From positions 27,355,501-27,419,500 of the forward strand of contig NC_081818.1 of assembly GCF_030704535.1 (NCBI RefSeq): a DNA stretch of 64,000 nt. The letters run 5' to 3'. Within the stretch, counting starts at the first letter, position 1; each line of letters begins with the position of its first letter. Position numbers and translations under genes: made by a program. The notes beneath the pieces were generated by a model. The model had not been told where the DNA came from. It saw nothing but the letters and a program-made list of their open reading frames with translations, and made no database searches. Of this stretch, positions 2,913-32,106 are shown piece after piece. The stretch comes from Vitis vinifera. Taxonomy: Eukaryota > Streptophyta > Magnoliopsida > Vitales > Vitaceae.

Positions 2913-5900
2913 CTATTGGATGATGTAGAGATCTTGTTTGGTTATGAAGTAGCGGCCAATGGCATCTCCCGGTTCCATGATAAACTGCTCCTGAAATGTT
3001 CCCATCCGATTGCTAGAAATTTCGATTGAAAGATCTTTAAAACTAGGCAAACCTTCTACTTGTACACCATCTCCACATATGAGGAACTGATTCCCAACAA
3101 TAAAGGATCCTGATACACGAATGGCAACTCCATCTTGTCCATGACCACGGCACTGAAGTTTTTCCACAACATGCACAAGTCGTTCAGGAGGCCAGTCACC
3201 CACTAATGTACTTCGAATGCCCGACAAAGTAGCAAAAATATCATCTGAACCAACAGATTGTTTACCCGAGAAACTACAAAGGATAGAGGTTTCTGTTAGT
3301 AGAGGAGAGAAGCCAAAGATTGAACCACTACCAAAGTGGATAATTATAACCACTAAGCATAGAACAACATGCCACCGCACGCAGAGTCAAAAACAAACAA
3401 ATGAAGCCATTATTTATTTTGATTGAAAATTATCGGTAAAAAATTTTCCATGGAAAAACCATTTCATAGGCCTAATAGATATTGGATATATCAACATGAA
3501 GCTTGGGGAAATTTATCCCGTTTCTTCAGTAAGCTTCCTGTAAAAAAAAAAAAAAAAAAAGCCTTTAGATTTAAAATCTATTTTTCTTTCCTGGTGTCTG
3601 TTGAAGCAAATAGGGCATAAGTTATTTTCAAGATCATGAATTTACCTAATTTTGTTCCAAACACACATGAAGCTTTCAATTAAATCTCATATGGTCGAAC
3701 ATCAGTAGCTAATATATTTGAATCTCTCTTTGTAAAGCTGCCAAATCTAACTTTCACTTTATGAAAATCATAGGAAAAAATGGGACAGTGAGAGTACCTG
3801 AAAGTTGAATCTTTCTTATATAAGGTCTTTGTATGTTGCCAAAGGTCATCAGGCCCATCAAAAAGTAAGTAATAGTGTATCATCAGCATCTGGTCAGCAA
3901 ATGTAAGTGAAATTAGTATTTGTTGAATTGGAAGCAAAAGTGCCCAGCTTTTATTCTGAATATCGGTTTAAGCTTCAACTGTATGAATGTCCAGGTCTAA
4001 ATCACTGGGTAAAGCTAGTGTAATAGTGGCTTAAATCTAAGTAATTTTTTTTAAACTTAAAGCCAAATAATTTGAATGGATTGAAGCCATATGAAACTAA
4101 ACTGTTCCTCTCTTATCTCTTAAATGTTTTATAGAAATAAAACATATAAATTCCTCGCTAACATTAGAAAAGACTGAGAAGCCAATGGAAAAATTACTTT
4201 AAGACACCGAGGTCCTCCATTCCAGTTAAAGGGCACTTTTTGTGTGATGAAATTTTTTTTAATATAAACACAAATCCAAAAACGAAGTATTCATAAGTCC
4301 AAAAACTGCTGGAAGAATGACAAGCAGATGTGATTGATCATCCACAAAAAAGGGACACCAAGATGCTGCCCCTCTGTCCATTAATAGAATTAAAGTGGAT
4401 GGATGAGAAGAAGTTCCCCAGGGAAACCCACAACAGAAACAGAGGGTGAAAAAAATAAGGTTGCTCCAAGGAGGCTGTCAGATCAACGCATATAACCCTA
4501 TACCAGAGGGAATTATTATAGAACAGTAAGAACATAGGGAAGAAAGATTATATTCACAAAATGACCATTAAAAAAATAACCAGATCAACATTCAGGAATA
4601 GAAAACAAGAAAAATAGAACCAGACATGTTTGCATTAGAGATTAGTTAAAGCTAGGCCCAAAGAAAGACAAGACAAGGGGATGATTGTAGAGATGGCTCG
4701 AGCCACTGCAATGATTGCTAGTGAATACATTAGAAAGTTGTGACATGGGTCCTGATTGAAAGTGCTACAAGTAGAAGGGGAACCAAAAAGAACATTGCTT
4801 GAGATAGTGAGAAAACAGGCAATGCCCTGTGGACTTGAAAGTAGATATGATTCTAAGAAGACAAAAAATGCAAAAAATATTTGCATTTACAACCCCAAAT
4901 AGTCAGAATGACAAAAGTTAGGTTGATTGAAGCACAAGTTAATCAATGCCAAATATTGATCACTTTCTGGAAATCTTCAAAAAAGCAAAGTTGGGCTATA
5001 TCCACATGGATAACTTACCATTTTGCCTGCTCTTTCATATAGTTCTAATAATTTCCCTTTTAGATTTCAACTGTCTTTATTTTGTAACCTAAAACTACTG
5101 CTACAAATAATTCCTTTTAATGGAGAAATATTGACCACAAGTTATTGGATCTTTCTAAGCACCATATATCTTCTAGTCATGGTTTAGAAATAGGAGATCA
5201 GGAACAAAAACGTTCAATTTTAGGCATCAGTATGATATGAATCTAGAGCACCTGCTTTTATTGCATTACACAAAGCTTTCAATTCAAATGATTTGTGATT
5301 GGGATGATTTTAACGTAGATAACCACCCTAAATGGATCACCAAGTGGGAGTTATTATATCACCAAAAAAATAACGTCTCAGTCATAGTGGTCATATGGCC
5401 ATGTTTTGTCTGTAAGACTAGAAGCAAAATACGGTGCCCCCTTTCTAATTTTTCCCATAGGTCATCTGGGCATCTTGAACTTTGGTGATCTAAACATTCA
5501 TATCTATATTCATATGAAAAGAAATCCATTCAGATCCACATCCAACAAAAATGTCCCCAGGTAATTTAAATAGCATAGATGTTTGCCCCTTCCATCTATT
5601 GTAGAGCTGCCAAATTCGTACAGTTGTTAGCACATTCTAACAGGTTAATAATTGGAAAGTGCAAGGTACTTACATCTGCCAGATCCTTCATCTTTTGTGT
5701 TGGGTCAAAAATGCTTCGGACAAATGCCGTTAAATCTACTCTGGCATGCTCATACTTTGTAATAAATGGGTGGGAAAGAAGCTGCAGCCAAGGATACAAA
5801 TTATACAATGTTGAGTTTGAATTATCCTCTTTTGATTTAGTTCACAATCTCTATAGAAATACTATAGTTTGAAAGCTTTGTAAAATACCATGTAAGTTAC

Positions 5901-29965: not shown

Positions 29966-29975
29966 CCCATGGCAC

Positions 29976-30794
29976 GGACTTTTCTCAATAGTACAGTAGT
30001 TTAAAAAAGTTATGCTTAAATTATTGTAGTAGAAGAAGTTATTACAAATATATGGTAGTTTTTGCCACATAGGAGAGAGGAGAGAGGAGAGAGGAGAGAG
30101 GAGAGAGGAGAGAGGGGATAGGAGATAGGGTGATAGGATATTATAAAAGGGAACTCGTCTCTTGAAGAGACGAGTTCCATGAAAAAAAAAATATATATTT
30201 TTTTAAAAAAATTCCCATTTACTCAAGGGAACTCGTCTCTTCAAGAGACGAGTTCCATGAAAAAAGACAAGGGAAAGACGAGTTCCCAGGGAAATTTTTT
30301 TTTTTTTTAAATATATTTTTTATTTAAAAAAAAATCCCAAATTAAATAAAAAAAAAAATTTCCTAAAGGGAACTCGTCTCTTTGGGAAATTTTTTTTTTT
30401 TTAAATATATTTTTTATTTAAAAAAAATCCCAAATTAAAAAAAAAAAAAATTCTTAAAGGGAACTCGTCTCTTGAAGAGACGAGTTCCCATGTAAAAAAA
30501 AATATATTTTTTTTAAAAATATATATATTAAAAAAAAAAAATTCCTAAAGGGAACTCGTCTCTTCAAGAGACGAGTTCCCTGGGAAAAAAATTATTATTT
30601 TTTTTTAAATATATTTTTTGTTTAAAAAAAAATTTCCTAAAGGGAACTCGTCTCTTCAGGAAAAACAATATTTTTTTTTTAAAAAAAAATCCCAAATTAA
30701 AAAAAAAAAAAAAAAAAAAACAAATTTTTTTTAAAATATAATTTTTTTTACATGGGAACTCGTCTCTTGAAGAGACGAGTTCCCTTTAGGAATT

Positions 30795-30842
<48 letters not shown>

Positions 30843-30928
30843 TTATTATTATTATATATATATATATTTAAAAAAAAAAAATTTACATGGGAACTCGTCT
30901 CTTGAAGAGACGAGTTCCCTTTGGAATT

Positions 30929-30968
<40 letters not shown>

Positions 30969-31093
30969 TTGGGATTTTTTAAAAAAAAAAAAATTTCCTA
31001 TGGCAAAAAAAAATTAATTTAAAAAATTGGACTTTAAGACGAGTTCCCATAGGAAATTTTTTTTTTTAAATATATTTTTTATTTAAAAAAATC

Positions 31094-31144
<51 letters not shown>

Positions 31145-31206
31145 AATTCCAAAGGGAACTCGTCTCTTGAAGAGACGAGTTCCCATGTAAATTTTTTTTT
31201 TTAAAA

Positions 31207-31238
<32 letters not shown>

Positions 31239-32096
31239 AAAACAAAAAAAAAAAATTCCTAAAGGGAACTCGTCTCTTCAAGAGACGAGTTCCCATGTAA
31301 AAAAATTATATTTTAAAAAAAAAAATTGTTTTTTTTTTTTTTTTAATTTGGGATTTTTTTTAAAAAAAAAAATATTGTTTTTCCTATGGGAACTCGTGTC
31401 TTGAAGAGACGAGTTCCCTTTAGGAAAATTTTTTTTAAACAAAAAATATATTTAAAAAAAAATAATAATTTTTTTCCCATGAAACTCGTCTCTTCAAGAG
31501 ACGAGTTCCCTTTAGGAAATTTTTTTTTTAATATATATTTTTTTTTACATGGGAACTCGTCTCTTGAAGAGACGAGTTCCCTTTAAGAAATTTTTTTTTT
31601 AATTTGGGATTTTTTTAAATAAAAAATATATTTTTTTTTAAAAAAAAATTCCCCAAAAGACGAGTTACCTTTAGGAATTTTTTATTTATTTAATTTGGGA
31701 TTTTTTTTAAATAAAAAATATATTTAAAAAAAAAAAAAAATTTTCCCTGGGAACTCGTCTTTCCCTTGTCTTTTTTCATGGAACTCGTCTCTTCAAGAGA
31801 CGAGTTCCCTTGAGTAAATGAGAATTTTTTTAAAAAAATATATATTTTTTTTTTCATGGAACTCGTCTCTTCAAGAGACGAGTTCCCTTTTGTAATATCC
31901 TATCACCCTATCTCCTATCTCCTCTCTCCTCTCTCTTACCCTCTCTCCTCTCTCCTCTCTCCTCTCTCCTCTCTCACCCTCTCTCCTCTCTCCTCTCTCC
32001 TATGTGGCAAAAACTACCATATATTTGTAATAACTTCTTCTACTACAATAATTTAAGCATAACTTTTTTAAACTACTGTACTATTGAGAAAAGTCC
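29976..32096. mobile_element. Giant foldback (inverted-repeat) transposon, probably MULE-related
   Basis: The left end GGACTTTTCTCAATAGTACA and the right end are exact inverted copies over about 98 bp. They are flanked by identical 10-bp direct repeats CCCATGGCAC at 29966-29975 and 32097-32106. The whole 2121 bp is one inverted repeat: a left arm to about 31003, a loop near 31004-31040, and a right arm from about 31041. Outer arms hold GGAGAGA (left) and TCTCTCC (right) arrays, inner arms a ladder of 31-bp palindromes. No protein can be encoded. The 10-bp duplication and long inverted ends fit a non-autonomous Mutator-like foldback element, but the superfamily is inferred. Perfect ends and duplication suggest a recent insertion. 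Confidence 0.88.
30149..31889. repeat. Ladder of 31-bp palindromes separated by A/T homopolymers
   Basis: Each unit is GGGAACTCGTCTCTT, one central G or C, then the exact reverse complement of those 15 bases. Full or nearly full copies start near 30149, 30227, 30459, 30550, 30753, 30888, 31156, 31263, 31387, 31482, 31553, 31776 and 31857. Half units occur near 30280, 30368, 30641, 31038, 31657 and 31748. Spacers are runs of A, T and TATATA, and are mirrored between the two arms. Every unit can fold on itself, and the arms can fold on each other. Confidence 0.9.
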
Positions 32097-32106
32097 CCCA
32101 TGGCAC

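Follow-up and report, generated by a model that had tools for sequence, protein, structure and literature searches.

Odd-centred palindrome ladders in a grapevine foldback element and in related Mutator-like element families with a plant mobile domain

Here we describe a 2,121-bp foldback element at positions 29976–32096 of a 64,000-nucleotide stretch of Vitis vinifera DNA (the window; NC_081818.1, 27,355,501–27,419,500, forward strand), which is a member of a mobile, high-copy family and not an artefact. Given its sequence and those of its relatives, it is best read as a gene-less, non-autonomous derivative of a Mutator-like element (MULE), and both of its arms hold a ladder of palindromes. 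What is new here is that two further MULE families, one a sister and one distant, each possess a ladder of their own on the 3' side of a gene encoding a plant mobile domain (PMD); the palindrome architecture appears to persist across MULE families while its sequence turns over. On balance, we think it probable that this gene-less foldback MULE is moved in trans and that its ladder is a family-specific protein-binding array.

Structure of the window element

Sequence analysis revealed that the element lies between direct copies of CCCATGGCAC at 29966–29975 and 32097–32106, in agreement with a first-pass annotation of the window, which had proposed an element of this length with an exact 10-bp duplication. 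The same annotation gave the inverted ends as identical over about 98 bp; they are indeed identical but longer, being perfect over 119 bp (29976–30094 on the plus strand, starting with GGACTTTTCTC, and 31978–32096 on the minus strand). Each inverted repeat overlaps a minisatellite of approximate limits: the left one, a 7-bp GGAGAGA repeat beside the unique end, spans 30072–30140 on the plus strand, and the right one 31907–32004 on the minus strand. Further inwards are the left-arm ladder (30149–30919), in which 31-bp palindromes and half-sites are set amid A/T runs, the foldback centre with one partial half-site (30920–31153), and the right-arm ladder (31154–31887), an imperfect mirror of the left arm. 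The mirrored arms that had been annotated are borne out by alignment of the element against its own reverse complement, in which 1,914 of 2,276 columns match (310 with gaps), compared to about 54% in 20 mononucleotide shuffles.

The element contains 22 exact 15-mer half-sites and 13 odd-centred 31-bp palindromes with at most three mismatches, seven of which have perfect arms by reading (a coarser count gave nine). The palindrome recurs as previously claimed, at spacings that are less regular (71–265 bp) than the 70–140 bp given. No half-site with up to two mismatches was found in the window outside the element. Moreover, a generic ladder detector counted 13 related palindromes for the 9-kb slice that holds the element, whereas 23 overlapping slices of the window without the element had a single palindrome each. 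The longest stop-to-stop frame is only 87 amino acids, so the element is without an apparent gene; it consists mostly of long modular inverted repeats with internal repeats and has no coding capacity, as a foldback element does.

A mobile family in the genome

Searching the genome with the end and the palindrome half-site, as the first-pass annotation had suggested, uncovered a high-copy family. The first 24 bp of the end occur at 238 places (129 + 109, at most three mismatches; control 1), and there are 2,364 occurrences of the half-site, compared to a single one of its reversed control. The 99-bp end yielded 347 candidates, 40 of which were scored; 19 of these 40 are identical, including the window's own two. 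We compared 20 complete copies, namely the window element and 19 others taken from among the best end matches, so that the sample is biased towards young copies. Target-site duplications are exact over 10 bp in 15 of the 20 and of 9 bp in two, with none or an imperfect one in the remaining three; the family thus has the 8–11-bp duplications of the MULE superfamily. The copies range from 889 to 5,115 bp (0.9–4.8 kb without the copy L048) and hold 4 to 50 half-sites each. Homopolymer lengths differ among them, and the two 99-bp ends show no mismatch in seven of the 20.

A query made of the joined flanks of the window element matched a 68% similar stretch of contig C18 that runs through the insertion point and carries a single CCCCTAGCAC opposite the window's duplicated CCCATGGCAC. 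This stretch is a diverged empty site at a paralogous locus and does not represent an allele. Very long homopolymers are in general hard to assemble, and the first-pass annotation had itself raised the prospect of an assembly artefact; however, the 238 ends, the individual 9–10-bp duplications in 17 of the 20 copies and the empty site contradict such an origin, leaving an artefact or a chance inverted duplication with a negligible probability.

Two observations concern individual members of the family. The 5.1-kb copy (L048:1008–6123) has an inner foldback that ends near 3,149; between there and the outer right end lie some 3 kb of different repetitive sequence, perhaps an insertion or captured DNA. 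It was set aside as a candidate gene-bearing copy in view of its repetitive frames and the other sequence past 3,149; no family search was made on it. On contig C5, three ends of one variant type (2092845, 2200731 and 2308610) are 107,886 and 107,879 bp apart, a spacing that suggests either an assembly repeat or tandem duplication of a large segment.

Gene-bearing relatives with the same ends

The search for an autonomous partner led to putative partners of autonomous size, 13.6–14.3 kb long, that combine the same ends with a transposase. The three fetched are 14,285 bp (C9), 13,640 bp (C3) and 14,090 bp (C7) in length, with duplications matching at 9/10, 9/10 and 10/10 positions, respectively. 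In each of them, transposase sequence is accompanied by PMD sequence on the other strand. The transposases of C3, C9 and C7 contain MULE, MuDR DNA-binding and SWIM domains (PF10551, PF03108 and PF04434; the C3 and C9 elements were scanned in pieces), so that relatives sharing the window element's ends encode the MuDR-type transposase of the MULE superfamily. From stop to stop, the transposase frame measures 860 codons in C7 and 791 in C3; one stop is present in the C9 copy. Taken together with the duplications, the long inverted ends and the many copies, these partners uphold the earlier assignment of the window element to the Mutator-like foldback elements.

The large elements carry window-type ladders close to each of their ends and also in the space where the 3' ends of the convergent genes face each other; close to the right end, the C7 element has only two exact half-sites. 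Ladders also rearrange between positions. The last 123 bp of the window element match the right end of the C9 element at 99%. Gene order was read by hand from the transposase and PMD matches listed. Among these, 14 transposase matches have at least 89% identity; a PMD lies within 5 kb of 10 of them, convergent in all 10, and the other four have no PMD among the matches listed.

The structure prediction for the PMD exon (mean predicted local distance difference test score, pLDDT, of 38) was discarded, the PMD profile found no solved relatives at E up to 1, and the transposase half gave only chance-level matches to solved structures (best E 0.28). The C9 element also contains a second AT-rich inverted repeat of 79–83% identity at about 3.6–4.4 and 11.0–12.1 kb, near the 5' ends of both genes, and C3 is similar; this repeat is perhaps a shared promoter module.

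Ladders in sister and distant families

The sister family at C18 (L064), whose transposase is 75% identical, has no window-type half-site within three mismatches. It has a ladder of its own, comprising 17 palindromes of the form AAGGTGTCTCTT-S-AAGAGACACCTT (at most six mismatches, three perfect) that are 54–114 bp apart and located 3' of the PMD gene. In the distant family L066 (transposase 46% identical), 13 palindromes of the form TAAAACCACAGTTA-S-TAACTGTGGTTTTA, two of them perfect, are likewise 3' of the PMD; L067, also of the distant class (43%), has 13 palindromes, one perfect. The distant palindrome is unrelated in sequence to those of the window and sister families. In both sister and distant families the palindromes are odd-centred, 25–29 bp long and separated by other spacers, and the centre is C or G in 41 of the 43 palindromes of L064, L066 and L067. 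The generic detector found 10–16 palindromes in all six ladder stretches (C9, C3, C7, L064, L066 and L067) and one in L065. In the genome as a whole there are 587 occurrences of the sister core TGTCTCTTSAAGAGACA and 137 of the distant 25-mer, each with a control of 0.

The position of the ladder relative to the genes was read by hand as above. The ladder is on the 3' side of the PMD in all six stretches, and the sister ladder lies 2–3 kb 3' of the PMD at three of three loci of the 70–77% class among the matches listed. Within that class, a PMD follows the transposase immediately downstream, in the same orientation, at 15 of the 16 matches listed. The two genes are convergent in the window's family and tandem in the sister class and L066, as if the PMD and its ladder had been inverted as a single block in the window's family.

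The first-pass annotation had viewed the palindromes as transposase sites or the product of replication slippage. Slippage alone is insufficient, because sister and distant MULE families hold ladders of different sequence at the same place; binding sites are plausible, with the PMD as equally good a candidate as the transposase. A further rival is that the ladder acts as RNA, its 3' hairpins ending, stabilising or hiding the transposon mRNA or feeding small-RNA silencing, with the foldback element as a silencer like Mu-killer. The location of the ladder 3' of the PMD, and between convergent genes in the window's family, agrees with this proposal. So does folding of the window element in silico, at a predicted –1,329 kcal/mol compared to about –362 kcal/mol for 10 mononucleotide shuffles, by which the long hairpin that the annotation had expected of any transcript is energetically favoured on paper. 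However, the window's family has ladders near both outer ends too, and small samples gave no clear sense-strand bias of a wobble-friendly kind, so that we regard an RNA role as improbable.

Several loci of this group merit separate mention. L065 (6541–9123) has an open 860-codon MULE transposase frame with ISNCH and QIDAIF where C3 and the sister family have ISDRH and QIDGTF, which are catalytic motifs. No PMD or ladder was seen in the 9.9 kb fetched, the PMD being judged from frames and the match list with no profile scan; L065 is possibly a domesticated gene. In L069 (82% class), the 1.5 kb fetched contains one core palindrome, flanked C..A. At C19:7928530–7941067, two distant-class transposase matches with identical scores accompany two mirror-oriented PMD matches within about 13 kb, an inverted element pair or a large palindrome. 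Finally, several distant-class palindromes are paired 111 bp apart, for example at C3:1877390/1877501 and C8:14859454/14859565, away from transposases among the matches listed, and are perhaps short gene-less derivatives of the distant family.

Symmetric change of the arms

Window and sister palindromes have the core GTCTCTT-S-AAGAGAC in common, and their outer arms differ symmetrically. The core GTCTCTTSAAGAGAC occurs 2,347 times in the genome; its outer neighbours are C..G in 1,540 cases, T..A in 587 and anything else in 220, so that non-complementary flanks number at most 220. Of the five arm bases outside the core, three are not the same in the window and sister consensus, and in each case the partner arm is altered to match. 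Such symmetric change between families is consistent with selection for symmetry. Within the sampled elements, both-arm deviations number 16 (seven of them mirrored) compared to 15.5 expected. The absence of a mirrored excess argues against strong hairpin-templated repair and gives no sign of site-by-site compensation in these elements, and quasi-palindrome repair was rejected on this count as the keeper of the palindromes.

Flips of the centre base

The centre of perfect 31-mers is C or G in 499 cases and A or T in seven. Among seven related copies, both C and G occur at six of 13 orthologous centres (gap columns included, by eye), compared to C/G variation at three of 1,729 gap-free other columns (two C/G, one A/C/G); a Fisher test using only the two pure C/G columns gave p ~1e-12. 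In three copies of another subfamily, one of 13 centres is C/G-variable and two vary with T, with one C/G column among 2,611 others. Furthermore, comparison of 1,979 same-flank pairs, which are not independent of one another, revealed 695 flipped and 96 otherwise different centres, and the arm sites of these pairs show 45 C/G differences in 59,370. The frequency of A/T centres (8/362) is close to that of ordinary arm differences (1,144/59,370), so selection on C/G is unnecessary. Both C and G are present in 11 of the 14 flank groups with at least three members. The largest non-mixed group, 14 members that all have G, is by its flanks the outermost palindrome and forms an exception.

Flips of this kind are what local inversion, template switching or conversion would leave behind, and the cause that we prefer is local inversion through template switching at a hairpin. 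We lean towards a scheme in which the palindromes extrude or foul replication, upon which template switching or local inversion flips the single centre base and allows the arrays to expand, contract and be rearranged. Hairpin-templated repair on an extensive scale is disfavoured by the lack of mirrored arm changes.

A putative model for the ladder

The present comparisons enable us to propose a model whose parts differ in strength. Very probably, the MURA-like transposase of the window's family moves the window element in trans by ordinary cut-and-paste. The ladder may well, at about even chances, comprise dense, symmetric, family-specific sites bound by a dimer of an element-encoded protein, either transposase or PMD. 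Such an array might be used for assembly of the transposition complex, for expression or for escape from silencing, and gene-less copies would persist because both ends and array are kept. Were a transposon protein to read the ladder, one would expect its sequence to differ by lineage, as this family hallmark does. More tentatively, and on present evidence somewhat unlikely, is a palindrome-addressed system in which the PMD (or transposase) dimer of each family reads its own odd-centred ladder 3' of the PMD. Protein and address would then co-evolve, and gene-less foldbacks would spread by keeping the address.

Several results weigh against a protein-binding array. The covariation between families may reflect only one or a few ancestral changes, and mirrored arm mutations are, as described, not in excess. 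Between related copies the arms vary more (25/272 columns) than the ends (4/189), which gives no sign that single arms are specially conserved. In several arrays most palindromes have imperfect arms, those with perfect arms numbering 4/34 in C7, 3/17 in L064, 2/13 in L066 and 1/13 in L067. In the distant class, a perfect 25-mer lies within 6 kb at four of 17 transposase loci among the matches listed (42–48% identity, contigs C1 to C9:19.06 Mb; by hand, perfect copies only). L065, the control with neither PMD nor ladder, is weak because its transposase motifs are altered, and the centre flips could stem from short gene conversion between ladder units.

In an alternative account the ladder has no function: palindromes and A/T runs slip or template-switch in replication or gap repair, and the foldback is a by-product carried by its ends. 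The varying lengths and half-site numbers of the copies, their variable homopolymers, the rearrangement of ladders between positions, the centre flips and arms no more conserved than the ends all fit this view. It has difficulty with sister and distant families, which despite other spacers still have odd-centred palindromes of 25–29 bp 3' of the PMD, and with sister palindromes that keep the core, the changed part being mostly symmetric. We therefore consider a functionless ladder unlikely, and retain the protein-binding array as the preferred explanation.

Comparison with known systems

FARE1 is a plant foldback MULE with modular long inverted ends. MuTAnT (PMC4486113) is likewise described as a plant foldback MULE with modular long inverted ends; it differs from the window's family in being mostly short and targeting TA repeats, with no palindrome ladder in the passages compared. 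The nematode Mutator/foldback family Tm1 (PMC3169594) resembles the present family in its foldback ends, inverted repeats built of repeats, mostly 8–10-bp duplications and a putative transposase in some members. Its internal motif is of about 14 bp, however, and the passages compared describe neither palindrome ladder nor PMD ("palindrom" occurs once elsewhere in the text). The grapevine Mutavine families (PMC2528002), compared by description only, are alike in their MuDR-type transposases and large elements; in the part of that paper compared, their duplications, when found, are always 9 nucleotides, whereas those of the window's family are mostly 10. Modular or tandem-ended elements in PMC9168764, PMC3310237 and PMC2955051 show no palindrome ladder in the passages compared.

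The combination of a MULE transposase with a PMD is shared with the PMD-carrying MULEs of Ikeda et al. 2017 (PMC5418596), which in their content come nearest to the present families. The passages of that paper considered here report PMD–transposase fusions in several grasses and Amborella, plus two captures, and speculate on anti-silencing of transposable elements. In contrast to these fusions, the PMD of the window's family is on the strand opposite the transposase and must therefore be a gene of its own; splicing could still join the two in the tandem families. The palindrome ladders are added here: "palindrom" has no occurrence in the text of PMC5418596, and no description of such ladders in PMD-MULEs was found in the passages seen of the open-licence PMC literature. 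The palindrome's letters matched a single paper there, apparently a Brassica miRNA study. The role of the PMD protein for MULEs is left open in the parts of PMC5418596 and PMC8616336 considered. That the same elements link it with a palindrome array specific to their lineage provides a directly testable target, and the single-base centre flips offer a natural readout of palindrome instability in plant chromosomes.

VANDALs are MULEs. In Arabidopsis, VANDAL21 and VANC (PMC5735166, PMC10398659) represent, in the passages compared, transposons with dense motif arrays in noncoding regions, including terminal ones, that diverge fast between relatives. The VANC21 motif described there is 9 bp long and arrayed in one orientation (PMC5735166), whereas the palindromes here are of 25–31 bp with a single, mostly C/G centre; "palindrom" has no occurrence in the text of PMC5735166. 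The present families share part of the VANC-like pattern, namely family-specific noncoding motif arrays that differ between related elements. If the model holds, they would add a second example of plant transposon recognition arrays with rapid turnover, and the palindrome-address system would be a second, independently evolved code for transposon anti-silencing or self-recognition beside VANC. The ladders resemble VANC target arrays, which provide the closest working analogy.
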